Virus record (IMG/VR): IMGVR_UViG_3300020053_000679
Location: 1-23,660 of that record
Source of the DNA: a virus
Reading direction: 5' to 3' (one strand)
Length of the DNA: 23,660 bases
The translations under genes were made by a program, and so were the position numbers. The notes beneath the pieces are model-generated. The model saw only the letters and a list, made by a program, of their open reading frames with translations. It made no database searches and was not told the origin of the DNA. Numbering within the stretch: position 1 is the stretch's first letter; each line of letters starts with the position of its first letter. This document shows, piece after piece, positions 167 through 23,035 of this stretch.

Positions 167-925
167 TTATTTATAATCAAATGCAATACGATGTAGCACT
201 CGGTTTTCCATTCCTTCAAAATCCCATCGCTTGTGTATACTTAACCATTGCTCACTGATAACAACATCACCATCTTGCCAATCATGATGATATGCAAACT
301 CAGGTTGAAGTACGTGCTCTTTCAGTCTTGACATTATACTATTAAATTCGTCCTGTGTCTTGCCTACCATGCCAAATATTTGCAAAAACGGGAAATACAA
401 TCCAGTGATACCGGCATCATTTGTATGCACCAACTTGAACGGCTTGTCTGTTGCATGATGCTCAACAAAGAAACTACTATCGCTATAAGAACCTTTCTTG
501 TAGCCTAGTGTTATCTCAATGTCTTGTATCTCTTCTTTCAAATCGTCAGGCAGTTCTCTGTATGCGTGTGCCATATCAATCCAGCTGGTTCTACTTCCTT
601 CTGAACCTTTCACTGAGTACAGCCAAATGAGAGGGCTCCTATCAGGGTTAGATGCTTGGTTGGCATGCCAATCCAATGAAGAAGTATGTCCGAACAAGCC
701 TTCTTCGCCGTGTTCATTCTTTTCGCCCGTAACTCTAAGGATGTGATCACCTATAGCAATGTGCTTTGTTCTTTCATGCTTCAGATACTGGCACTTTCCT
801 ATCGACTGACAAAACTCTATCTCTTCTTCCTGGGTCAAATTCTGATTGCGAATTACGACTACAAGATCGTTAAGAAGAGCGTCCTTGATACCTTGAACAT
901 CAGTTAAATCGTGAAACTCTTTCAT
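167..925 (-). CDS. TauD/TfdA-like 2OG-Fe(II) dioxygenase family protein
   Basis: The 252-aa protein has the general layout of the TauD/TfdA clavaminate-synthase-like family, cytosolic enzymes that use Fe(II) and 2-oxoglutarate to oxidise small substrates. The region LDWHANQ (85-90) sits where TauD has its WHTD iron-binding motif. Residues 220-246 end with SIHKR (His231) and NRVLHR (Arg242), the expected distal iron ligand and 2-oxoglutarate-binding arginine. The HxD aspartate appears to be Asn89, so iron binding may be altered. Its ATG shares one base with the gp44 stop (TAATG), which implies translational coupling. The substrate cannot be inferred. The fold assignment is fairly sure; catalytic activity is not. 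Confidence 0.75.
   Translation of the reverse strand: MKEFHDLTDVQGIKDALLNDLVVVIRNQNLTQEEEIEFCQSIGKCQYLKHERTKHIAIGDHILRVTGEKNEHGEEGLFGHTSSLDWHANQASNPDRSPLIWLYSVKGSEGSRTSWIDMAHAYRELPDDLKEEIQDIEITLGYKKGSYSDSSFFVEHHATDKPFKLVHTNDAGITGLYFPFLQIFGMVGKTQDEFNSIMSRLKEHVLQPEFAYHHDWQDGDVVISEQWLSIHKRWDFEGMENRVLHRIAFDYK
168..175 (-). promoter_or_regulatory. Candidate T4-type late promoter box TATAAATA before the edge gene
   Basis: TATAAATA on the minus strand lies 16 bases before ATG 152, but it also encodes the end of the TauD-like protein (Tyr-Lys-stop). Chance is a fair alternative. Confidence 0.3.
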
Positions 926-1869
926 TATTTAAATTCTACATTTGCCATGATTTCTGTTAAGCAGGCTGTGAGATTAATCTCTTGGTCTGCTACAAACGCC
1001 GCCTTGTACTGATAGTCTGCAATGAGCAAAACCATTTGAGGAACGGATTTAATCTCAGGAAGTAATGAGTCAAAGATGTAACGGAAAATTCCTTGTGGAT
1101 CTGTGTCCACATTGTTAGCAACCCACTGTCGCATCTTCTTCCAATCTTTGCCACGTAAAGAGTTAATCAACTCCTTAGTGTTTACTTCTGCAATGTTGCT
1201 GAGGATACCTTCGTCGATTATACCTGCCACAGAGTATCGCTGTAGTTCATTAATAACACGGCGATAGTCTGGGAAGTATTTAATTAGAAGTTCTGCTAAG
1301 ACGTTTTCCTTAAACTCTACACCCTCATTGTTTAGGATAACTTTCATACGATCCATGAACTTTGCTGCTAGCTTTGGTTTGTTACCATTGCCAGTTTTAA
1401 ATTCAATAACCGTTGTCCTAGAATGTAAGGGAGAGATAATTCGGTTCTTGTAGTTACAAGTAAAAATGAACCTACAATTCTCAGAGAATGTTTCAATAAA
1501 AGCACGTAAGGCAGGCTGTACTGAATCTTTATTCAAGTAGTCTGCTTCGTCAATTATTACTACCTTAGTCTTACCCTCGAAACTAACTGCACTCGCGAAC
1601 TGTTTAATTTTAGTCCTAAGTGTATCAATCTGACGACCCTCGTCCGAACCATTAATAATAATGTAGTCCGCACCAAGTTCTTCACACAGGGCTCTAGCTA
1701 CTGTAGTCTTACCTGTACCTGCTGTTCCGCATAGTAACAGGTTAGGAACTTCTCCTTGTTTTAAGAACTGCGAAAAAGTATTTTTTGTGTCCTCGGGGAG
1801 AACACATTCTTCAATTGTTCTCGGACGATACTTTTCCACCCATAAGAATTTTTCTTGCACATTTTCCAT
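925..1869 (-). CDS. 44: Sliding-clamp loader large subunit, gp44-like AAA+ ATPase
   Basis: The 314-aa AAA+ protein loads the gp45 clamp onto primer-template DNA using ATP. The start WVEKYRPRTIEE is the classic clamp-loader N terminus. Walker A is GTAGTGKTT (48-56) and Walker B is VVIIDEAD (103-110). The arginine-finger motif is LHSRT (149-152), a variant of the usual SRC. Length agrees with T4 gp44 (about 319 aa). The start ATG at 1869 is preceded by AAGGTGA. It lies in a replication block with gp45 upstream, but a peroxiredoxin gene and a 58-aa gene separate the two. The small subunit gp62, next to gene 44 in T4, is not seen; a TauD-like gene takes that position. Confidence 0.95.
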   Translation of the reverse strand: MENVQEKFLWVEKYRPRTIEECVLPEDTKNTFSQFLKQGEVPNLLLCGTAGTGKTTVARALCEELGADYIIINGSDEGRQIDTLRTKIKQFASAVSFEGKTKVVIIDEADYLNKDSVQPALRAFIETFSENCRFIFTCNYKNRIISPLHSRTTVIEFKTGNGNKPKLAAKFMDRMKVILNNEGVEFKENVLAELLIKYFPDYRRVINELQRYSVAGIIDEGILSNIAEVNTKELINSLRGKDWKKMRQWVANNVDTDPQGIFRYIFDSLLPEIKSVPQMVLLIADYQYKAAFVADQEINLTACLTEIMANVEFK

Positions 1870-2696: not shown

Positions 2697-3353
2697 TTAG
2701 ATCTCTGAAGAACGTTCCAAAGCCAACCAGTATTTTAAATCGCTACTAGTGGATTGAAGGAACATGAATTTCTTCTGAGATAATGTTACTTTATAGGCTC
2801 CAGGGACAACTTTCAAGTTCTCAATCTGTAGTCTACAATCAAATTCGACACCAGCGTCTCCAATAACTTGCTTGAAGCTATTCGATTTAGGAGTGCTAGG
2901 GTCGCCTACAGTAAGTGTTACCTTACCATCTTTCGCTACAACCGAGAGCATAGGCGCTCCAGTAATTGCGGCTGCTTTCATAATCATACCCAAGTCATCT
3001 GCAGACAAGTCGAAACTGTAGAAGTCGTCTACTTCAATTTGTTTATCAGGGGCGGATACAATAATGTTAGGGTCTGCATAAAAGTATTCAAACTTTGAGC
3101 TACCCTTAGATACTGTAATGGATTCGTCTCCAAAAGATACTTCTTGATCTTCCATGAGAGTTAAGAGAGCCAACAATCCATTTAGATCATAGATTGCAAA
3201 CTCTTTGTCAAAAGTTTCTGATACTTCTGCCCGAGCAAAGATGTTCTTTCCAGTACTGATAGTAGAAAGAACATTTCCTTGTCGAACTAAAATATTAGAA
3301 TTGACGGTTGCGAAATTCTTGAGAACGTCAAGAGTTGATTTCGATATTTTCAT
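2697..3353 (-). CDS. 45: DNA polymerase sliding clamp, gp45-like
   Basis: The product is the trimeric processivity clamp that tethers the phage polymerase and, in T4, also activates late transcription through gp55 and gp33. The start MKISKSTLDVLKNFATVNSN closely matches T4 gp45. The total of 218 aa agrees with the T4 protein (228 aa). I chose ATG 3353 over the upstream TTG at 3365 because GGAG lies at the right distance before it and the protein then aligns with gp45. It is the first gene after a strong promoter (3383-3411) that overlaps a perfect palindrome. Downstream are the 58-aa gene, peroxiredoxin and gp44. Confidence 0.95.
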   Translation of the reverse strand: MKISKSTLDVLKNFATVNSNILVRQGNVLSTISTGKNIFARAEVSETFDKEFAIYDLNGLLALLTLMEDQEVSFGDESITVSKGSSKFEYFYADPNIIVSAPDKQIEVDDFYSFDLSADDLGMIMKAAAITGAPMLSVVAKDGKVTLTVGDPSTPKSNSFKQVIGDAGVEFDCRLQIENLKVVPGAYKVTLSQKKFMFLQSTSSDLKYWLALERSSEI

Positions 3354-8938: not shown

Positions 8939-10435
8939 TCAGTAGTTTAGGGATAAAGTCAACAAATATTCACGTCCGCCGGCAGTATATTGGGGTAAAA
9001 TCTCGAATTCTCTATCAAAAACGTCCCTAATTTGGAACATTACATTGTAGGTTCCAAAGTCTTTTCCTATATGTAACTGTGCTGATTTTACATCCTCGAG
9101 CGGTGTTTTGTCAACGTCTCGTCGTCCGTTTTGGTATGCTAGTTTGAACCCGTAGGTATAACCCTTGTAGTCGTCCTCAAGCATGATTGCTGTACGAAGT
9201 TTAGGGATCCTTGGAAGATCTGAATGTGTGACTGCTATAACTGTCTTGAATTTTTTGTAGTATGCTAGTACCTTAATACCCTTGGTACTGTAGGAGCCTG
9301 TGTTCACATACTGGTTATTGACATAGTCGTAATCTATACCCTCGTCAAATTCGTAGGCGAAAGCTGAAAAAATTTTATATCGTACGTCGACACCTTGCCC
9401 CTCCTCTGCGTTGAGAAACCGATTTGGTGATACCCAACCGTCGCCGTTCGTTTCATATAGAGTCGGTCGCCTATAACTGTTCCCTACACTAATTGAAAAG
9501 TCTGAGGTTCTAACACCTACTTTATATACGAATACATCATCGTTCTCATATCTTAGTCCTGCATTAAACAAATCATAGGTAAGAAAAGAGTAGACTGATC
9601 CAACTGTTAACTTTTCGGCGCCATTATCCTCTCTTTCTACGTTTGCTCCAAGTAGTACATAATCGTTGACATGCTTACGAGTATCTAAATAGTATCTTTG
9701 ATTTTTAGAAGAGTAGCTCTCTTCACCGTTTCTCAAAAATGTTTGTTCGTTTTCTACGAAACCAAATGTTGCATTTTCGCCTTGTATTGATAACTCGTGC
9801 TTCCTACCCTTTTGTTCACAATCGTCAGACTCCCAGCATGAATCATAATCGTATTGGTAATCTGTTAAAGCATAATTTAATACACCCGTTTGAAGTCTTA
9901 AAACATTGCTATGGTAGTCGTCTTCTTCCTCATTGGTGTTCATTACGCTACCATTCGATGCTTGCTTAGATGCTATAGAAAAGTATTCGTCGCCAATTGA
10001 AACATATTTTGAATCACTGCCTGCTTGAGCTATGAAGTGTTTTCTAAGTTTGTCTGTTATAAAAACAGTGCCTGCTAAACTACCCGAGCCTGTGAGTACA
10101 CTATTGGGTCCATGAGCAATCATGATCTCTTGGTATTGTTGAGGTAGATCGTTTGCCCAGTCATACCAACCAGTAGAAGGATCGTTAACGGGTACGCCGT
10201 TCCTAAAGACTCTGGTATGTGTAGAACTCTGTCCGCGATCTCTAAAAGAAGAAAATCCACCAATACCACCTGGGGTAAAAACCATTGATGGTAAGATGGA
10301 TTCAATTGTTGAAGTGTTAAGTGCAGGGTCTACTTCTACTTTGTTAATAGGTTGCCCTACAACAATAACTTCTTCTATTGTCTGTCCGTGTGCAATTGTG
10401 CTCATAAGAGCGAAACATAATATAAGGTGTTTCAT
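8939..10435 (-). CDS. TonB-dependent outer-membrane receptor, BtuB-like
   Basis: The 498-aa protein has a signal peptide (about 1-17, hydrophobic LILCFALMSTIAHG), then a TonB-box-like EEVIVVG (21-27). A plug domain covers about 30-130, with FRDRGQSSTHTRVFRNGVPV (64-83), DWANDLP and GPNSVLTGSGSLAGTVFI (109-126). The rest (about 365 residues) is a likely beta barrel ending in an aromatic residue (LLTLSLNY), the usual outer-membrane assembly signal. This matches TonB-dependent transporters for cobalamin, siderophores or similar ligands. It is shorter than E. coli BtuB (614 aa), mainly in the barrel. It is last in an envelope module with a His-rich secreted protein and an M15 peptidase. A receptor gene is unusual in a phage; substrate unknown. 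It implies a Gram-negative host. Confidence 0.9.
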   Translation of the reverse strand: MKHLILCFALMSTIAHGQTIEEVIVVGQPINKVEVDPALNTSTIESILPSMVFTPGGIGGFSSFRDRGQSSTHTRVFRNGVPVNDPSTGWYDWANDLPQQYQEIMIAHGPNSVLTGSGSLAGTVFITDKLRKHFIAQAGSDSKYVSIGDEYFSIASKQASNGSVMNTNEEEDDYHSNVLRLQTGVLNYALTDYQYDYDSCWESDDCEQKGRKHELSIQGENATFGFVENEQTFLRNGEESYSSKNQRYYLDTRKHVNDYVLLGANVEREDNGAEKLTVGSVYSFLTYDLFNAGLRYENDDVFVYKVGVRTSDFSISVGNSYRRPTLYETNGDGWVSPNRFLNAEEGQGVDVRYKIFSAFAYEFDEGIDYDYVNNQYVNTGSYSTKGIKVLAYYKKFKTVIAVTHSDLPRIPKLRTAIMLEDDYKGYTYGFKLAYQNGRRDVDKTPLEDVKSAQLHIGKDFGTYNVMFQIRDVFDREFEILPQYTAGGREYLLTLSLNY

Positions 10436-11309: not shown

Positions 11310-11338
11310 ATTATAATACCGTTATGTTATAATGTCAA
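11310..11338 (-). promoter_or_regulatory. Sigma70-like promoter for the envelope module
   Basis: Perfect TTGACA (11338-11333) and perfect TATAAT (11315-11310) on the minus strand, 17 bases apart, precede the M15 peptidase. The -35 box overlaps the end of the ClpP-like gene. The start site would be near 11303, inside the late-type box. Confidence 0.85.
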
Positions 11339-11958
11339 GATGCTTTAGCTTGTTTTGGTACTCTAGGTTTGCGGGGTGCTTTTGTTTTGGGGGCTGGATT
11401 TTCTCTAATATCATTACGCTTAGAAAGACGTTTAATCACTTCCTTAGAGTCCATCCAATAGTCCTTACCCTCAATAACAGATTCAATCTCTTGGGGAGTC
11501 ATAAAGTCTGAATAGATATCAGTGAGCAAACGCTTTGCCCAAGTATGTTCTGCTAGAGCTCTAGAGATCAGTTCATTGCCTTTACCCCAATTACCTGAGG
11601 AATAATTGTGTACTAAGAACTGGGTATGATCCGAAACCTCACAAATGTCTGCACTTAGAAAAAGGAATGTTGCGGCACTCATACAAGCACCTTCAATTGA
11701 TGCAATGATCCTTCCTTTACATTCAGACATAGAACGTAGAAGTTGGATCGTTGTCATGATATCGCCACCGTAACAATTGATGTGCAATATCACAACATCG
11801 TTCTCGGCACAATTTCTAAAACATTGATTCCAATTTACATATTCTGATGGCCCTTCAATCGTATCATTTAGATACAAATCAATTACTCTACCAGCAATCC
11901 TCTCATAAATGTTTTGATTGCTGTTATTAATAATGTCGTCAATTTTAAAGTCGTTCAT
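11335..11958 (-). CDS. ClpP-like serine protease
   Basis: The 207-aa protein resembles the ClpP/crotonase-fold peptidase family S14. The oxyanion and substrate strand is INCYGGDIMTTIQLL (60-74). The likely triad is Ser94 in GACMSAATFLFL, His117 in LVHNYSSG and Asp166 in GKDYWMD. The tail after 185 is basic and Pro/Lys-rich. Phage ClpP homologues can act in prohead maturation or alter host proteolysis; no Clp ATPase partner or capsid gene is in the window, so I cannot choose. Its start lies inside the end of the 125-aa gene (14-base overlap). The gene ends where the endolysin promoter begins. Confidence 0.85.
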   Translation of the reverse strand: MNDFKIDDIINNSNQNIYERIAGRVIDLYLNDTIEGPSEYVNWNQCFRNCAENDVVILHINCYGGDIMTTIQLLRSMSECKGRIIASIEGACMSAATFLFLSADICEVSDHTQFLVHNYSSGNWGKGNELISRALAEHTWAKRLLTDIYSDFMTPQEIESVIEGKDYWMDSKEVIKRLSKRNDIRENPAPKTKAPRKPRVPKQAKAS

Positions 11959-12322
11959 AGTATCTAGTTACCGCCTTAATTTTCTCAATCTGTTTGTCAA
12001 TGATAGCCGTTCTATTAGGCCAATGGATATATTCTTTATCTGGATTCTTTTGTAAATTAAATAACAACGGTAAAATTAGATCTTCTAACTGTTTTAGTTT
12101 GTTAGCCACATCTTGTTCTACAAGTGTTCTGTGTTCATTCACCATATCAGAGGAATCTGCATTTAAGATTCTTCCTTCGATGTCTAAAAGTTTTGCCATG
12201 ACTTCATCTCTAAAGTCTTTGGTTACGTTCGTTACAGTTTCTGTAACTGATGATTGAGGTACGCTATCGTAATTTGGTTCTTCGACGGCTGTAAACCCAA
12301 AGTCAAAATTGTCATCTGACAT
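11945..12322 (-). CDS. Hypothetical phage protein, 125 residues, helical
   Basis: The product begins MSDDNFDFGFTAVEEPNYDS, with an acidic, disordered-looking N terminus. It continues with helical, coiled-coil-like segments (about 35-95) and ends in DKEYIHWPNRTAIIDKQIEK. I believe similar proteins occur in marine T4-like phages, but from memory only and without a function. The ATG at 12322 has AGGAG at a good distance and overlaps the deformylase gene by 11 bases; its end overlaps the ClpP-like gene by 14. An FxF-type N-terminal motif could be a protein-binding peptide. Confidence 0.75.
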   Translation of the reverse strand: MSDDNFDFGFTAVEEPNYDSVPQSSVTETVTNVTKDFRDEVMAKLLDIEGRILNADSSDMVNEHRTLVEQDVANKLKQLEDLILPLLFNLQKNPDKEYIHWPNRTAIIDKQIEKIKAVTRYYERL

Positions 12323-12848
12323 TTCTTACTCCTTTTACATTACGCTTAAACCTTTTTACTTTCTTGTCTAAGCCTTTGATTGCTCTGTCTAATTTAAACT
12401 TAGACGCTCTCATTGTAAAGTTTTTTCCTAGCATGTGATCGTATTCGTGTAGTGCAATACGAGCAGCTACGCTAGTGTAGGTTTCAATTACTTCCTTACC
12501 TTCTACATCAGTATATTGGAAGGTTGCCTCTGAGGGTCTGCTTAGTGATAACCATAACCCTGGGAAGGATAAACAACCTTCTTTTTCAATACAAGTTTCT
12601 TCGCTAACGGAAACTAGAAGAGGATTAAAAAGTGTTCTTTTAAACTCCTCGCCATATACCATTGTAAACACTTGCATATCTAAACCAACTTGGTTTGCAG
12701 ACAATCCAGCACCATTTAACATATTACATTTTTCGTGTAAAAGTTTAGACACTAGTTCTGCATCGTCTTTTTCGTAGTCGAATCGTGCAGGAGCCTCGTT
12801 CAGCCTTTTATCTCCGAATGGGATAAGTTCTAAATCACCTAAGTTCAT
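12312..12848 (-). CDS. def: Peptide deformylase
   Basis: The 178-aa enzyme removes the N-formyl group from new proteins. All three family motifs are intact: GLSANQVG (48-55), EGCLSFPG (90-97, metal ligand Cys92) and HEYDH (134-138, ligands His134 and His138 with catalytic Glu135). A basic, Lys/Arg-rich C-terminal tail (about 145-178) extends beyond the catalytic core and could bind the ribosome or RNA. The start overlaps the glutaredoxin stop in ATGA. Deformylases are known auxiliary genes of marine phages, where they may support synthesis of quickly turned-over host proteins. Confidence 0.95.
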   Translation of the reverse strand: MNLGDLELIPFGDKRLNEAPARFDYEKDDAELVSKLLHEKCNMLNGAGLSANQVGLDMQVFTMVYGEEFKRTLFNPLLVSVSEETCIEKEGCLSFPGLWLSLSRPSEATFQYTDVEGKEVIETYTSVAARIALHEYDHMLGKNFTMRASKFKLDRAIKGLDKKVKRFKRNVKGVRNVR

Positions 12849-15826: not shown

Positions 15827-16270
15827 CTACCTCTCGTAGATCGCTGAGTTGGCTCCGTGTTCACTTACTTCACAACTAACAGCAAAGCATCTACCATCTG
15901 TCATTTCTTTTACCAAAGCGTCTGCCTTATGGAATGCGTGTTCCGCAAATTTTTCACAACCAACGCCTGGCATAACAACAACCTTGGCAAGGCCTTTTGC
16001 TTCCAGTTCTAGTAAGTCTTTCATAAAAGGATCATCTCTATCCACAACCAATGTATGGTCAAAGCTAGACTTTAGCCATTCTTTTAGAATTTTTAACCCA
16101 CCAAAGTCTACCACCCAGTTTTTATCATCGAGAACTTCTGCTCCGAATTTAAAACTGAAAGCTAAAGAGTATCCATGTAGTAAACTGCAATGGCTATGGA
16201 AAGCATTTGGTTGTCGGAAAACACAAGATAGTCCTTCGTTGTGTCCATATGTTTTAGTAGAATAGTTCAT
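15827..16270 (-). CDS. queD: 6-carboxytetrahydropterin synthase, QueD family
   Basis: The 147-aa T-fold enzyme should convert 7,8-dihydroneopterin triphosphate to 6-carboxy-5,6,7,8-tetrahydropterin, step two of 7-deazaguanine synthesis. The features are STKTYGHNEGLSC (4-16), HSHCSLLHGY (25-34, metal and catalytic region), WVVDFGGLK, FDHTLV, GCEKFAEHAF and VSEHGANSAIY. The pattern matches a bacterial QueD-like subfamily with LHGY instead of HGH, so one zinc ligand is non-standard. It is separated from FolE and QueE by about 4 kb and lies just before gp47. The call is good at family level; 6-pyruvoyl-tetrahydropterin activity is the main alternative. Confidence 0.88.
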   Translation of the reverse strand: MNYSTKTYGHNEGLSCVFRQPNAFHSHCSLLHGYSLAFSFKFGAEVLDDKNWVVDFGGLKILKEWLKSSFDHTLVVDRDDPFMKDLLELEAKGLAKVVVMPGVGCEKFAEHAFHKADALVKEMTDGRCFAVSCEVSEHGANSAIYER

Positions 16271-18280: not shown

Positions 18281-18511
18281 TTACCCCATAATGTTAGAGA
18301 ACAACTCCTCGAATTCACTGTTCAGACTGCTCTCTTCTTGGAAGTTTTGCTTGTGATATACACGAGCCATCTTGCGAAGTAGTCTTCGATCAATACCTTC
18401 TTCCTCATTAATCTTTTTAATAATTTCTCGTACCAACTCTTTCTCAGCATCTGAGCGTGTCATTGAGTTTGAGATTTCAACAATTGCGTTTTTAATTTTT
18501 TGTGCGTCCAT
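18281..18511 (-). CDS. dsbA: DsbA-like double-stranded DNA-binding protein
   Basis: The 76-aa helical, charged protein resembles T4 DsbA, a small DNA-binding protein linked to late transcription. The best match is EEEGIDRRLLRKMARVYHKQN (36-56), close to the T4 segment with GVDGKMFNRLLALYHKDN. The C terminus SEFEELFSNIM also resembles the T4 end. The start has AGGAG overlapping the previous stop, and the same TATATTATG initiation word as gp45 and QueE. It lies at the end of the deazaguanine operon. Confidence 0.65.
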   Translation of the reverse strand: MDAQKIKNAIVEISNSMTRSDAEKELVREIIKKINEEEGIDRRLLRKMARVYHKQNFQEESSLNSEFEELFSNIMG

Positions 18512-18520
18512 AATATACTC

Positions 18521-19786
18521 CTAAAATAAATCTTCAAGTGAAAGTGGTGCCTCGTCCTTGACTGGTGCAGATTTCATTCTACCACCTAAGTAAGGATTGT
18601 TAAACCACGAGTTAAAACCGTCTAAGTCTTTTACATCATATAGATTTCTATATTCTCCTTCTAGTTTTAATTTGTGTGCAAACTTTAATAGCTCTTCTGG
18701 AGAGTTTAAAATTTTCTCCACGTGCTTAGTAAAATTGTGAATAGACATTAAGATGAACGCTGTGCGTATCTTTATCCAGTTATTAAGGTTAGTGTTACTC
18801 TCTAACCATGTTGTGCTATTTGTGTTCATAATTCGATGGAATTCTTTAACATCTACGCCTAAATCAACCACTTTTTGAACATCTGTGTACATTTCTTGAT
18901 AGTAGTTACTAAACTGTCGGTTAAACTTAACTGTCTTTCCATTCATATAATACAGTCCAGTTTCAACAGCACGACTGTGAGTTGTACTATCATAAGATAT
19001 TTTTACATCTTTATACAAGCCATTCTGTAGGAATATAATGTAAGGTAACAAACGTCTAAGGGCACCAACACCTAGAATGTGAATGTGCAATGTGCCGTTC
19101 TCATTTCTAATAGGAACCTGTGATGCAATAAAGGCACGTTGAATATCTTCTAAGTTGCCTGTACCTAATGCCGCGGCACCCATTGCGATACCACCGAGCT
19201 TATTATGTTTTTCGGTTGGGATCTCTTCTAGGATATATTTTGCCCATTCCATATATGTTTCGTAGCAATTGCCTTGTAGAATAACAAAAGGTTTACAGTT
19301 GCTATTATGTTGATCAAAGACTTCAAATTGTCTTTTAATATTTCTGCCTGTAATCCTAGCGCAGTTCTCGTGTCCATCTCTGTCAAAGAACCTACCCTTA
19401 ACATCATTACGATCTGAACGATCGCCTACAAGCGTAACGGGTATCTCATCAAAGCACATACCAACATCAGCATACTTTGCCTGATTCTCGTAGACTTTAT
19501 CTTTTAGTTCTTCGGTAATTGTTTTACCTTGTGTAACAACCTGAAGACCGCCTGAGTCTGCATGGATAGAGTGAACATTGGGTGTATAAACTTTGAACCT
19601 GTCGCCAAAGCTAGACTCTGTGTGTGCATTGTAAAGCATTGAAAACTCGTGGGAGTTTACATTGTTCACAGTTTTGTTTAGCAAGTCGTTTACAATTGCC
19701 GAGTTTATTTCATCGCCTGCAATCTTTGGATTGCTTAGTCTCATGTATGAGGTGCCGGATACGACATATTCTAGTTTATGGTTCAT
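18521..19786 (-). CDS. dpdA: DpdA-like TGT-fold DNA transglycosylase
   Basis: The 421-aa protein resembles tRNA-guanine transglycosylases and their phage relative DpdA, which swaps guanine in DNA for a 7-deazaguanine base. HADSGGLQ (75-82) matches the substrate-binding DSGGFQ with Asp77. GGIAMGAAALG (198-208) and IHILGVGALRR (235-245) match the glycine-rich barrel segments. ISYDSTTHSR (263-272) is where TGT has its nucleophilic Asp, here Asp266. TGT's usual C-terminal zinc site (CxCxxC) is not seen, which favours DNA-type DpdA over bacterial TGT. It is co-transcribed with FolE and QueE. The final residues PLSLEDLF resemble clamp-binding tails. The start overlaps the exonuclease stop in ATGA. 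Confidence 0.82.
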   Translation of the reverse strand: MNHKLEYVVSGTSYMRLSNPKIAGDEINSAIVNDLLNKTVNNVNSHEFSMLYNAHTESSFGDRFKVYTPNVHSIHADSGGLQVVTQGKTITEELKDKVYENQAKYADVGMCFDEIPVTLVGDRSDRNDVKGRFFDRDGHENCARITGRNIKRQFEVFDQHNSNCKPFVILQGNCYETYMEWAKYILEEIPTEKHNKLGGIAMGAAALGTGNLEDIQRAFIASQVPIRNENGTLHIHILGVGALRRLLPYIIFLQNGLYKDVKISYDSTTHSRAVETGLYYMNGKTVKFNRQFSNYYQEMYTDVQKVVDLGVDVKEFHRIMNTNSTTWLESNTNLNNWIKIRTAFILMSIHNFTKHVEKILNSPEELLKFAHKLKLEGEYRNLYDVKDLDGFNSWFNNPYLGGRMKSAPVKDEAPLSLEDLF

Positions 19787-20322
19787 GATTTTAGTATTTC
19801 TAATATGAGTTTCGCCTCTGCTTGGGCGTCATGTAGAGCATTGTGATTAACACCTGTTTTTTCTAAACGCTTACCTAATACATTAGCAAGTGTTCTTAAA
19901 CAGTAGATATCCCAAAACTTCCATGGAAATTTATCTATTGCTGGTCTGCTTTCATTCCAGCCAGTAGCATTAAAGGCGTTCTCTAAAAGTACAACATCAA
20001 AGTTCGCACCGAAGCCCCAGATAGGAATGGATTTGTCGCCATAAAATAATGCGAACTTATCAAGTGCCTCGTCTAAAGGAACAGGATCTACTTGCCAAGC
20101 CTTACGTGCTTCTGGAGATTGTTCTTTCCACCAATTAATTGTATGTGGATCAATAGCTAGCCCATAACTTTTACAAGAGCTAGGATCAATGTTGATAAAG
20201 AATGTATCCAAGATACCTTCGTTGATTGAAAAAGCAACAGCGCCAATTGAAACAATGCAACCGTTTGATTTGGTGCTTAGTGTTTCTAAGTCAACGACTA
20301 TTTGTCTTTTAGAGGGATCCAT
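19783..20322 (-). CDS. DEDDh 3'-5' exonuclease
   Basis: The 179-aa protein belongs to the DnaQ/RNase T-like superfamily. The acidic catalytic residues are Asp11 and Glu13 in VDLETL, Asp109 in GANFDVVLLENAF, and His160 with Asp165 in HNALHDAQAEAK. It resembles the exonuclease-domain family that includes T4 DexA-like enzymes. It could process DNA ends or RNA, or degrade host DNA; the substrate cannot be read from sequence. It lies between FolE (14-base overlap) and the DpdA-like gene (ATGA overlap), so it is produced together with the base-modification enzymes and may do a linked repair step. Confidence 0.87.
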   Translation of the reverse strand: MDPSKRQIVVDLETLSTKSNGCIVSIGAVAFSINEGILDTFFINIDPSSCKSYGLAIDPHTINWWKEQSPEARKAWQVDPVPLDEALDKFALFYGDKSIPIWGFGANFDVVLLENAFNATGWNESRPAIDKFPWKFWDIYCLRTLANVLGKRLEKTGVNHNALHDAQAEAKLILEILKS

Positions 20323-20992
20323 TACCCAACTCCTGTAATTGTATGTTGTGCATAAATTCGTTTTTAAGTGCTGAGTCTGTTCTCAACAAACCTTTTAGCA
20401 CAGTGGTTTGTGTACTACTGTTAGAAGATCTAATGCCACGGTTTTCGCAACAACCATGTCTCGCTCTAATGTAAACACCGACTGCTTTAGATTTAGTCAA
20501 TTCCTCAATTTTCTTGGCAATCATTTCTGTTAGTTCTTCTTGTAAGTGTCCACGTGCTGACAAGTGCTGTGCAATTCTAGTGTATTTGCTTAAACCGATA
20601 ACTTCTTCGCCTGGCATACAAGCAATATAACATACACCTTGAACTGGTTGATGATGGTGTGAACACATGGATTTAATATCACTTCTAATAACAATCAACT
20701 GTTCATAGGCATCATCATTTGGAAAGGCAGTAACTTTAGGCTCTGGTTCGTAGCGACCACCCATGATTTCGTTGTAATACATCTTAGCTAAGCGCCTAGG
20801 TGTATCTTTACTGTTGGGGTCATTCTCTCTATCAATAAGTAGAGAGTCAATAACTGCCTCAAATTTTTCTGTTAATTCATCAATCAAGTCTTGATGTTCT
20901 TGTTCTGAGATATGCTGAGCGATGTTATCACTAGCAAAATAACGAACATTGTTCGTCTTTAGTCTCTCTATAATTGTTTTACTTACGCTCAT
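20309..20992 (-). CDS. folE: GTP cyclohydrolase I
   Basis: The 227-aa enzyme converts GTP to 7,8-dihydroneopterin triphosphate, the entry step of 7-deazaguanine (and folate) synthesis. Zinc ligands are Cys110 and His113 in SMCSHHHQPVQG and Cys181 in RHGCCENRG. GLSKYTRI (133-140), ARGHLQEELT (146-155) and the DTPRRLAKMY helix are all intact. I chose ATG 20992 because GGGAG lies 5 bases upstream and the ATG overlaps the phosphoribosyltransferase stop in ATGA; an in-frame TTG at 21019 is less likely. Its neighbours QueE and DpdA indicate use in DNA modification rather than folate supply. Confidence 0.95.
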   Translation of the reverse strand: MSVSKTIIERLKTNNVRYFASDNIAQHISEQEHQDLIDELTEKFEAVIDSLLIDRENDPNSKDTPRRLAKMYYNEIMGGRYEPEPKVTAFPNDDAYEQLIVIRSDIKSMCSHHHQPVQGVCYIACMPGEEVIGLSKYTRIAQHLSARGHLQEELTEMIAKKIEELTKSKAVGVYIRARHGCCENRGIRSSNSSTQTTVLKGLLRTDSALKNEFMHNIQLQELGNGSL

Positions 20993-21450
20993 TTTTTCTC
21001 CCATGGAAATTGTATCCAATTTTCTATATTATACACATTACATCCTACAATGTCAAGTGCTATTTCTTCTTTTTTGTTAAGTAGAGTACCAAATAATGCT
21101 TTAGAGTTGGTACAGTGATTGTTGACAATATCCATAATACCCATATAGGTGGTACCTGAATCTATTAAATCGTCAACGATAAGAGTGTTAGAATGGCTTC
21201 TAAAAGTTTGTATTAGTTTTATTTCATCCCTACGTTTGCCGTCCCGTGTCTGCCACTCTAGTGGGACAAAGGGCACACCCAATCTTTGAGATATTATCAC
21301 GCCTGGAATTAATCCTCCTCGTGCAACACCACAAACTTGTTCAATAGTGTAATCCTTTTCAACTATATCCAAAATCATATTGTCTATCAGTTCATCCACT
21401 TCAAACCATGATAGATCCAATATACCCATGTCGTCAATGTTGAAGTTCAA
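20989..21450 (-). CDS. Purine-type phosphoribosyltransferase
   Basis: The 153-aa protein has the PRPP-binding signature TLIVDDLIDSGTT (89-101) and VARGGLIPGVIIS (42-54), typical of type I purine PRTases such as xanthine-guanine PRTase. It would join a purine base to PRPP and release pyrophosphate. It lies between queE and folE: the queE stop is 1 base before it and its own stop overlaps folE. This suggests a role in the deazaguanine pathway, such as salvaging guanine released by the DpdA-like enzyme. The start is probably TTG 21450 (AGGA upstream); ATG 21429 is the alternative. Base specificity cannot be read here. Confidence 0.85.
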   Translation of the reverse strand: MNFNIDDMGILDLSWFEVDELIDNMILDIVEKDYTIEQVCGVARGGLIPGVIISQRLGVPFVPLEWQTRDGKRRDEIKLIQTFRSHSNTLIVDDLIDSGTTYMGIMDIVNNHCTNSKALFGTLLNKKEEIALDIVGCNVYNIENWIQFPWEKK

Positions 21451-21451
21451 T

Positions 21452-22351
21452 TTAGGTTCCTATTTGATTACCAAAGACGTAAGCGTGATTCCTAGTAGCT
21501 ACCTTGTAGCCTCGATTCATCGCTTCTATTGCTATATCTGCCGCTACCAATTCCTGTCCTTCAACTGTAGCGCCCACTGGCATTATCCAAATGTCAGGCT
21601 TTTTAATTTTGTCTGCAACATTTTTATAATAACTATTTAGCTCCGTAACAAAGTCTTCTATCTCTTTCCACGAATCTTCTGTACCATTACAGACAAACTT
21701 TAGAATGCCTGTGCTTTGAGGTACACCTTCTAAATAAGACATAATAATATCAAGGTTGACTTTACCAACTTCACCTGATGTTTGTAACAGCTTTGGACTC
21801 ATTGCCCAATGCCATTGTCCGCCCATATCGTGATAGTATGTATTAAGCCACTCAGCCAACTCTGGGTTCAACTTTTTAGTAGCGTTTGTTTCTACTGTAA
21901 CAAGTTTTGGAATATTGCCTCTGATAACAAACTCATTAACAATTGCCTTCATCTGCTTTTGTTGTAACATGGGCTCGCCACCTGTAAAGGCAAGCATATT
22001 TTCTTGTCCGGTTCTGGGGTGTGTGAATTTGCCGTGGGGTAATTTTGATTCTAGTAAATCTGCCGCACCTTGTGGGTCTGTGTCTTGTGCTAAGTGTTTA
22101 TACTTCTTGCTCCAACTGTAACTAGAATCACAACCATATTCCCATACAGGCAGGTCTTCTACTCTTTTTACATTAATAAGATCTAAGTCAAGAAATGGCA
22201 GTTTATATGTTGAGGGGTCTGTAGGATCTTTTTGTCCAAAACCATTACATTCTAAGTTACACCCAAAAAAGCGAATCCATGTCGTAGGAGTGCCTGCGTG
22301 TTCAGCCTCGCCTTGAAAGCTATAGAATATTTCCGAGAATCGTACTTTCAT
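21452..22351 (-). CDS. queE: 7-carboxy-7-deazaguanine synthase QueE, radical SAM, with split cluster motif
   Basis: The 299-aa radical SAM enzyme would convert 6-carboxytetrahydropterin to 7-carboxy-7-deazaguanine. EIFYSFQGEAEHAGTPTTWIR (7-27) is the typical QueE start, and FTGGEPMLQ (122-130) is the SAM-binding motif. The [4Fe-4S] cysteines appear to be Cys31, Cys35 and Cys74 (WEYGCDSSYSW). The usual CX3CX2C spacing is thus broken by a 38-residue stretch between the second and third cysteines, since residue 38 is Phe. E. coli QueE also has a non-standard spacing, so activity is plausible. It is first in the operon, with the TATATTATG start word and its own promoter. Confidence 0.9.
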   Translation of the reverse strand: MKVRFSEIFYSFQGEAEHAGTPTTWIRFFGCNLECNGFGQKDPTDPSTYKLPFLDLDLINVKRVEDLPVWEYGCDSSYSWSKKYKHLAQDTDPQGAADLLESKLPHGKFTHPRTGQENMLAFTGGEPMLQQKQMKAIVNEFVIRGNIPKLVTVETNATKKLNPELAEWLNTYYHDMGGQWHWAMSPKLLQTSGEVGKVNLDIIMSYLEGVPQSTGILKFVCNGTEDSWKEIEDFVTELNSYYKNVADKIKKPDIWIMPVGATVEGQELVAADIAIEAMNRGYKVATRNHAYVFGNQIGT

Positions 22352-22380: not shown

Positions 22381-22409
22381 ATTATACGACTATTTAGACT
22401 GATTGTCAA
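22381..22409 (-). promoter_or_regulatory. Sigma70-like promoter for the deazaguanine operon
   Basis: Perfect TTGACA (22409-22404), 17 bases and perfect TATAAT (22386-22381) on the minus strand. The -35 box lies inside the last codons of gp55. The start site would be near 22374, 23 bases before the queE ATG. This places the modification genes under host polymerase, probably early. Confidence 0.87.
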
Positions 22410-22980
22410 GTGCTTTTTCTTCCTCATCCGACCGTTTCTTATCTAAATATTTTGGTCGTCTCTTAGGAATGTTCTTACTAGTTTGTGCCTCAATCTTAGC
22501 ATTGTCTTGTGCTGTTAGATCTAATTGTTGACGCATCCAATCTAAGAACTCATTGCTACCCTCACCACTTCCTTCAGCATCAGCAATTAGACCTTCCAGG
22601 TCAACGCTTTGTAGATACTTCATCTTAGTATCCATTTGTCGCTTCTCTTTCTGAATACGTCTAAGGAATGCGTAGTATGTAATTTGGGTAAAGTACGCAA
22701 AGGGGTTTGAGGATTTTGCGGGATCAAAGTTATCAATATATGTTAGACAGTTTTCAATACCATCTAAGATCATCTCATCGCGAAATGTATAATTGATAAA
22801 GTTTGACTTGTATGCTAAGTGGTTTGCTATCTTAATAAAGCACTCACCTAGGTAGCCTGTTACAGGAGGCTTATCGACTCCTTTTTCTTTTGCGGCAAGA
22901 ACAGTTAACCTGTACTCGCTTATTTGCTTTAAGAACTCCTTATTGTCAATGTAGTGAGCTCTTGTCTTCTTCTTTTCCAT
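22390..22980 (-). CDS. 55: Late-transcription sigma factor, gp55-like
   Basis: The 196-aa protein aligns by eye with T4 gp55 over most of its length. YIDNKEFLKQISEYR (10-24) matches the N terminus. RDEMILDGIENCLTYIDNFDP and NPFAYFTQITYYAFLRRIQKEKR match the core-binding and -10-recognition region. In T4 this factor directs host polymerase to TATAAATA late promoters with gp33 and the gp45 clamp. The C-terminal end here is highly charged and lacks the SLDFLY-type clamp-binding tail of T4. I chose ATG 22980 (GGAG 6 bases upstream) over ATG 22992 or TTG 23013. Confidence 0.92.
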   Translation of the reverse strand: MEKKKTRAHYIDNKEFLKQISEYRLTVLAAKEKGVDKPPVTGYLGECFIKIANHLAYKSNFINYTFRDEMILDGIENCLTYIDNFDPAKSSNPFAYFTQITYYAFLRRIQKEKRQMDTKMKYLQSVDLEGLIADAEGSGEGSNEFLDWMRQQLDLTAQDNAKIEAQTSKNIPKRRPKYLDKKRSDEEEKALDNQSK

Positions 22981-23006
22981 TTTGGTCTCCATTATAAAAA
23001 AATTGC

Positions 23007-23035
23007 TTGACAAATTGTTTTTGTATGTGTATACT
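23007..23035 (+). promoter_or_regulatory. Plus-strand sigma70-like promoter in the gap between gp55 and the 144-aa gene
   Basis: GCTTGACA with -35 at 23007-23012 and TATACT at 23030-23035, 17 bases apart, point rightward against all genes in the window. Transcription from about 23042 would be antisense to the 144-aa gene. No plus-strand gene follows. A palindrome covers the expected start. Confidence 0.6.

Follow-up and report, generated by a model that had tools for sequence, protein, structure and literature searches.

The window, by which we mean the whole 23,660-base stretch taken from an IMG/VR virus record, originates from a T4-like phage, and it carries on its minus strand a gene for a putative DNA transglycosylase together with genes for a sliding clamp, a clamp loader subunit, and enzymes of the preQ0 pathway. 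The features on which the following discussion relies are listed here:

18521..19786, minus strand: dpdA2, encoding a putative 421-residue DNA transglycosylase of TGT fold and DpdA2 subfamily (basis: open reading frame, phrog_10773, a weak TIGR00430 Tgt match, and an AlphaFold2 model)
18524..18541, minus strand: SLEDLF, a predicted gp45-binding peptide (CIP/SCBM; no binding data), residues 416-421 at the very C-terminus (basis: conservation, likeness to gp43, a position weight matrix (PWM), and shuffles)
18542..18574, minus strand: variable linker, approximately residues 405-415, between the tail and the catalytic body (sequence and length vary; pLDDT drops)
2697..3353, minus strand: gp45 sliding clamp, the proposed partner, with a probable ATG at 3353 (Pfam DNA_PPF and gp45-slide_C, phrog_223; PDB match to T4 gp45 1czd, E 4e-23)
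925..1869, minus strand: gp44 clamp loader subunit (phrog_168, Pfam Gp44_lid)
15827..16270, minus strand: QueD-like protein of the preQ0 pathway (Pfam PTPS, TIGR03367)
20309..21019, minus strand: FolE, GTP cyclohydrolase I of the preQ0 pathway (Pfam GTP_cyclohydroI, E 2e-41)
21452..22351, minus strand: QueE-like radical SAM protein of the preQ0 pathway (NCBIfam QueE models, score below the cut-off)
22390-23013, minus strand: late sigma factor gp55

Since the first 4 bases of dpdA2 are also the last 4 of the upstream exonuclease gene and its stop falls 9 bases before the next gene, dpdA2 lies inside a gene run. That next gene, directly downstream, encodes a DsbA-like DNA-binding protein (18281-18511, minus strand) with the C-terminus SEFEELFSNIMG, in which the string FEELF stands five residues from the end and is also kept in the related genome G001. 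Of the preQ0 genes, FolE, QueD, and QueE are present in the window, and QueC is absent from the fragment and present in near relatives; other proteins of the window may, from their sequences, be gp46 and gp47.

A Pfam search of the 421-residue protein matched no family, its PHROG cluster (phrog_10773) is of unknown function, and the TIGR00430 Tgt model matched only weakly. The AlphaFold2 model, built from 24 sequences (its own and related ones), reached a pLDDT of 89 and a pTM of 0.88, and a Foldseek search of the PDB with this model returned tRNA-guanine transglycosylases at the top, the matches including murine and human TGT, archaeosine TGT 1j2b, and the DNA preQ0 insertase DpdA 7ui4 (probability 1.00, query TM-score 0.41-0.50), by which the criterion of a TGT fold is met. 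Asp77 in its DSGG-Q context (DSGGLQ) and Asp266 in YDST-H are invariant among 24 homologues, and we take them to be the catalytic aspartates of TGT. The window protein is homologous, at 29% identity, to the DpdA2 of phage nt-1, the founder of the DpdA2 subfamily, and the DNA of nt-1 carries dPreQ0, dG+, and dADG by mass spectrometry, dPreQ0 accounting for only about 0.11% of G (PMC6884629). The two share not only the protein family, but also the T4-like phage background and the gene company of FolE, QueD, QueE, and QueC; they differ in that nt-1 DpdA2 ends AEYPDFKS, without a clamp tail. By analogy, the window protein would thus be a DpdA2-type DNA transglycosylase, with the base exchange itself inferred from its nt-1 counterpart.

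Read from its open reading frame, the protein ends in KDEAPLSLEDLF, followed by the stop codon, and its last residues are PLSLEDLF, as the sequence-only reading had reported. That reading had proposed that the peptide resembles the tails of T4 proteins that bind the clamp gp45, and it would have given up the idea had close homologues lacked the peptide. Two scans of viral contigs yielded 83 relatives with a traceable dpdA frame, many of them near-copies, of which 80 reach their own stop; all 80 carry the tail or a close variant at the C-terminus, with zero or one residue after it. The consensus is [S/T/N]-L-[D/E]-x-L-F, realized as SLEDLF, SLEELF, TLEDLF, SLEEMF, SLEGLF, NLEELF, and SLDELF, with altered versions in a few loci (TLVDLF in L043, SLDEDLF in L048, and TLELF in L045 and L046). 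Isolate phages keep the tail in four of nine cases, at 30-44% identity: BUCT-ZZ01 (SLDSFFD), Xanthomonas phage X1 (SLEELFG), Stenotrophomonas phage Mendera (SLDDLFG), and Acidovorax phage ACP17 (TLDELFE). Across 47 aligned tails, the Leu at position 2 and the Phe at position 6 are invariant, with each of the six Leu codons in use and Ser drawn from both of its codon boxes, and the residue directly before the tail is free to vary, being represented by 11 different amino acids. Three homologues (L042, L044, and L047) carry an unrelated-looking extension of about 25 residues before the tail, yet end in SLDELFG again. Because Leu2 and Phe6 stay fixed despite codon change, the neighboring residue is free, and the tail is re-formed after an extension, the C-terminal peptide is, on comparative sequence evidence, under selection.

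The tail also satisfies the description of the clamp-interacting peptides of T4 gp43, gp55, and gp33, namely S/T-L-D/E-x-L-F/Y/L lying no more than about four residues from the C-terminus. The T4 tails cited in the sequence-only reading were correct for gp55 (SLDFLY, within SLDFLYEAND) and gp33 (TLDFLL); the gp43 tail given there, SLFDMF, belongs to RB69, whereas T4 gp43 ends in SLDFLFG, which is closer to SLEDLF. In a cryo-EM structure from 2025, residues 892-SLDFLF-897 of T4 gp43 occupy the inter-domain pocket of gp45, folded into a single turn of helix, and gp43 lacking its last six residues loses its association with the clamp (PMC12746103); the gp43, gp55, and gp33 tails are interchangeable (PMC2988020). 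Like these proteins, DpdA2 bears the peptide at or near its C-terminus, behind a linker that is probably flexible, and belongs to phages with a gp45 of their own; the differences are that here it sits on a base-exchanging DNA-modifying enzyme, that its binding is unmeasured, and that position 4 is acidic or small where T4 has Phe, the last of which counts against the clamp reading.

Within the phages themselves the tail has a counterpart in that of their own polymerase. The window lacks gp43, and the comparison rests on the genomes of relatives, in which gp43 ends in VATLEDLFS (G001 and G003), QATLEDLFR (G002), or QATLEDLFA (G004, G005, G007, and G013), and on the isolates, in which it ends in SSLEDLFG (Mendera), SSLESLFG (X1), PSLDDLFE (ACP17), or STLDDFFS (BUCT-ZZ01); the DpdA2 tail is nearly the same peptide, and the criterion of a match to the cognate polymerase is met. 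A clamp and its loader, the other requirement placed on phages with a tailed DpdA2, are likewise present, gp45 and gp44 being encoded in six of six genomes screened. A control screen of all 266 predicted T4 proteins with a regular expression of the tail returned only the known gp45 binders gp43, gp55, and gp33; applied to 2,834 ORFs of 11 T4-like genomes, the same expression returned only gp43, gp55, gp33, DpdA2, two glycosyltransferases, and one S-PM2 match, NLESLFKRS, a probable chance hit (the variant gp43 tails of RB69 and S-PM2 are missed by the expression). With a PWM built from gp43 tails alone, leaving out the genome under test, DpdA2 ranked within the top three C-termini of every tail-bearing genome ranked: 3rd of 212 in G001, 1st of 226 in G002, 2nd of 239 in Mendera, 2nd of 306 in X1, 3rd of 242 in BUCT-ZZ01, and 3rd of 217 in ACP17, where dpdA was taken from the annotation, as a longer antisense frame masks it in simple ORF picking. 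In the window it ranked 1st of 31 ORFs. Only 2 of 341,600 shuffled C-terminal 30-mers, and none of 29,997 internal 11-mers, reached the score of the BUCT-ZZ01 DpdA tail (SLDSFF).

Burial of the tail in the predicted fold was also named as a ground for refutation in the sequence-only reading, and by model confidence the tail is not confidently packed: against a mean pLDDT of 89, the AlphaFold2 values are 88 at residues 401-410, 73 at 411-420, and 68 at residue 421. The linker before the tail varies in sequence and length among homologues, and the tail, at this low-confidence end of the model, is probably flexible. A helical turn is predicted at residues 417-420 in the free protein, the only form modeled; together with the drop in pLDDT, it agrees with a free tail that would turn helical on binding, although binding itself has not been shown.

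We therefore propose that the DpdA2 of these T4-like phages carries a gp45-binding peptide, a reading to which we assign a probability of 0.87, with the physical binding itself inferred. On the mechanism envisaged, the phage's own preQ0 genes would supply a 7-deazaguanine, which DpdA2 would put in place of guanine in the phage DNA; SLEDLF, borne on a flexible linker and acting as a clamp-interacting peptide like those of gp43, gp55, and gp33, would fit into the hydrophobic pocket of a gp45 protomer and thereby tether the enzyme to DNA-loaded clamps, either at the polymerase or left on the new duplex, and modification would in this way follow replication. Granted clamp binding, we lean, only slightly, toward the view that the tail serves mainly for modifying nascent DNA at the fork or directly behind it, a timing that is inferred. 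The main rival within clamp binding concerns this step and not the binding itself, so that its standing overlaps with that of the proposal: the tail may bind gp45 in a role away from the fork, whether in scanning on parked clamps or in competing with the polymerase and the late RNA polymerase, and modification would then be independent of ongoing synthesis. We regard this as possible, if the less favored of the two, and two observations in T4 speak for it: a tail of the same kind lets gp45 tether the late RNA polymerase apart from the replicative polymerase (PMC7892883), and α-glucosyltransferase (α-GT) is pulled down with gp45 without the contact controlling the share of modification (PMC13216743). 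Nothing that we found separates parked clamps from fork coupling, both of which need the tail to bind gp45.

The readings that dispense with gp45 have, even jointly, only a small claim on the data. Dimers are known among TGT enzymes (PMC6884629), and the tail, with its predicted helical turn, might be a structural or dimerization element of DpdA2 whose polymerase likeness is coincidental; we consider this improbable, as model confidence is lower at the tail, in related phages both gp43 and unrelated glycosyltransferases terminate in this peptide, the peptide survives replacement of the region preceding it, and it is absent from a whole clade of DpdA2. Placed about as low is binding to the host β clamp (DnaN), whose bacterial consensus QL(S/D)LF shares Leu and Leu-Phe with the tail (PMC9690074): this motif is not met, the first-position Gln being replaced in every homologue by Ser, Thr, or Asn, and the tail matches the polymerase tail of phages that encode their own gp45 and gp44. 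That a tail of only six residues resembles the motif by chance, as NLESLFKRS of S-PM2 probably does, is the least credible of all and is ruled out by the shuffles, the internal 11-mers, and conservation at the codon level among proteins only about 30-35% identical.

The DpdA2 proteins of nt-1, KVP40, F86, and K566 (Vibrio phages) and of pf16 (Pseudomonas) lack the tail, although the gp43 of nt-1 and pf16 keep theirs as the sole strict matches in the two genomes (the last 7.5 kb of nt-1 lay outside the screen), and this is a point against the clamp reading. In a broader phage collection, 70 records from six host groups matched, and gp45 was present in every genome checked from these. The tail is not universal among gp45-encoding phages with DpdA2. 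When the last 30 residues are left out of the tree, the five proteins that lack the tail group together (support 98/94), equivalent to a single change, with long branches and an unsure deeper order; the tail is on this evidence a separable add-on that was gained or lost once. Because a tail-less clade exists, the reaction itself does not require the tail.

DpdA2 is not the only DNA-modifying candidate that bears the peptide. A GT-B-like glycosyltransferase of 447-454 residues ends in TTSLEDLF in G001, SLEDFFND in BUCT-ZZ01, SLEGLFE in L142, and SLEDLFT in L177; in BUCT-ZZ01 its gene immediately precedes dpdA. The genes of this family are:

L087:21-1385, minus strand: GT-B-like glycosyltransferase ending SLEDLF
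L002:1665-3008: GT-B-like glycosyltransferase ending SLEDFFND
L142:9815-11173: GT-B-like glycosyltransferase ending SLEGLFE
L177:2028-3380: GT-B-like glycosyltransferase ending SLEDLFT

A second, GT2-like family (298-304 residues, with a 340-residue frame in L131) ends in TLESLF, TLEELF, TLEGFF, or SLEDLF and in several cases shares a contig with a tailed dpdA:

L162:4089-4985: GT2-like gene near a tailed dpdA, ending NTLESLFA
L154:3023-3937: GT2-like gene near a tailed dpdA, ending NTLEELFT
L131:6782-7804: GT2-like gene near a tailed dpdA, ending SLEDLFS

Pfam and PHROG searches named glycosyltransferase families only weakly, a profile of the tail-bearing GT-B protein found no match among solved structures, and its structure model, built from a three-row alignment, was unusable at a pLDDT of 45. 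Because two glycosyltransferase families and DpdA2 carry the tail, a shared docking trick is suggested, in which the clamp serves as a docking site for DNA-modifying enzymes to which the polymerase tail has been added; glycosyltransferase activity on DNA is unproven. Baseplate hub proteins (phrog_150) also end in GLEDFFG or a similar string (L090:538-1299, L109:4546-5328, L115:7844-8554, and L127:8633-9394); as clamp clients they were set aside, being structural proteins with Gly as the first residue and with the segment following a Cys-x-x-Cys motif. This near-motif is nevertheless a counterpoint to the clamp reading and a caution for tail-based searches.

Clamp contact by a phage DNA-modifying enzyme is already known. 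The precedent is T4 α-GT (PMC13216743, PMC6024577), which binds gp45 (Sommer 2004; pull-down repeated in PMC13216743), whereas β-GT does not. Like the proposed DpdA2, α-GT is a phage enzyme that modifies DNA, makes contact with the sliding clamp, and is proposed to act with replication, but it is an unrelated enzyme and, because its C-terminus (FKEQFDIITK) lacks a clamp-interacting peptide, it must bind gp45 by other means. A caution comes from the same system, in that the share of modification by α-GT is set mainly by promoter strength and not by gp45 binding (PMC13216743). The DpdA of Enterobacteria phage 9g shares 7-deazaguanine insertion into phage DNA; it is a 318-residue protein of another subfamily, its gene adjoins one annotated as a bacterial-type clamp, and a search of its sequence for such a tail found none. 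In eukaryotes, the DNA methyltransferase DNMT1 binds PCNA, and the short motif by which it does so keeps it at replication; it resembles the present case as a DNA-modifying enzyme with a short clamp motif and differs in enzyme, motif, clamp, and purpose. The sequence-only reading knew of no description of clamp coupling for DpdA, and our literature search, with most subscription journals outside its scope, likewise found nothing that connects a clamp with DpdA or with the insertion of 7-deazaguanine, nor any report joining clamp-binding motifs to phage DNA methyltransferases.

If true, the proposal would explain fast and selective modification of the phage's own new strands and not of host DNA, and the six-residue tail would offer a clean experimental handle on modification. 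As the two glycosyltransferase families suggest, phage genomes could also be searched with the polymerase tail as a key to DNA-modifying enzymes not yet known, and the case bears on the purpose of the α-GT clamp contact if it is promoter strength that determines how much modification occurs.

Some further observations concern the window. Unlike the gp55 of T4 and RB69, the late sigma factor in the window, G001, and G002 showed no recognizable clamp-binding tail, and late transcription in such phages may be coupled to the clamp by another route. Genes for a TauD-type dioxygenase (167-925), a peroxiredoxin-like protein (1901-2506), a ClpP-like protease (11335-11958), and a peptide deformylase (12312-12848), all on the minus strand, lie amid the replication genes, and 8939-10435 on the same strand encodes an outer-membrane-like phage protein of 498 residues that has an apparent signal peptide and the plug domain of TonB-dependent receptors (Pfam Plug, E 2e-9).
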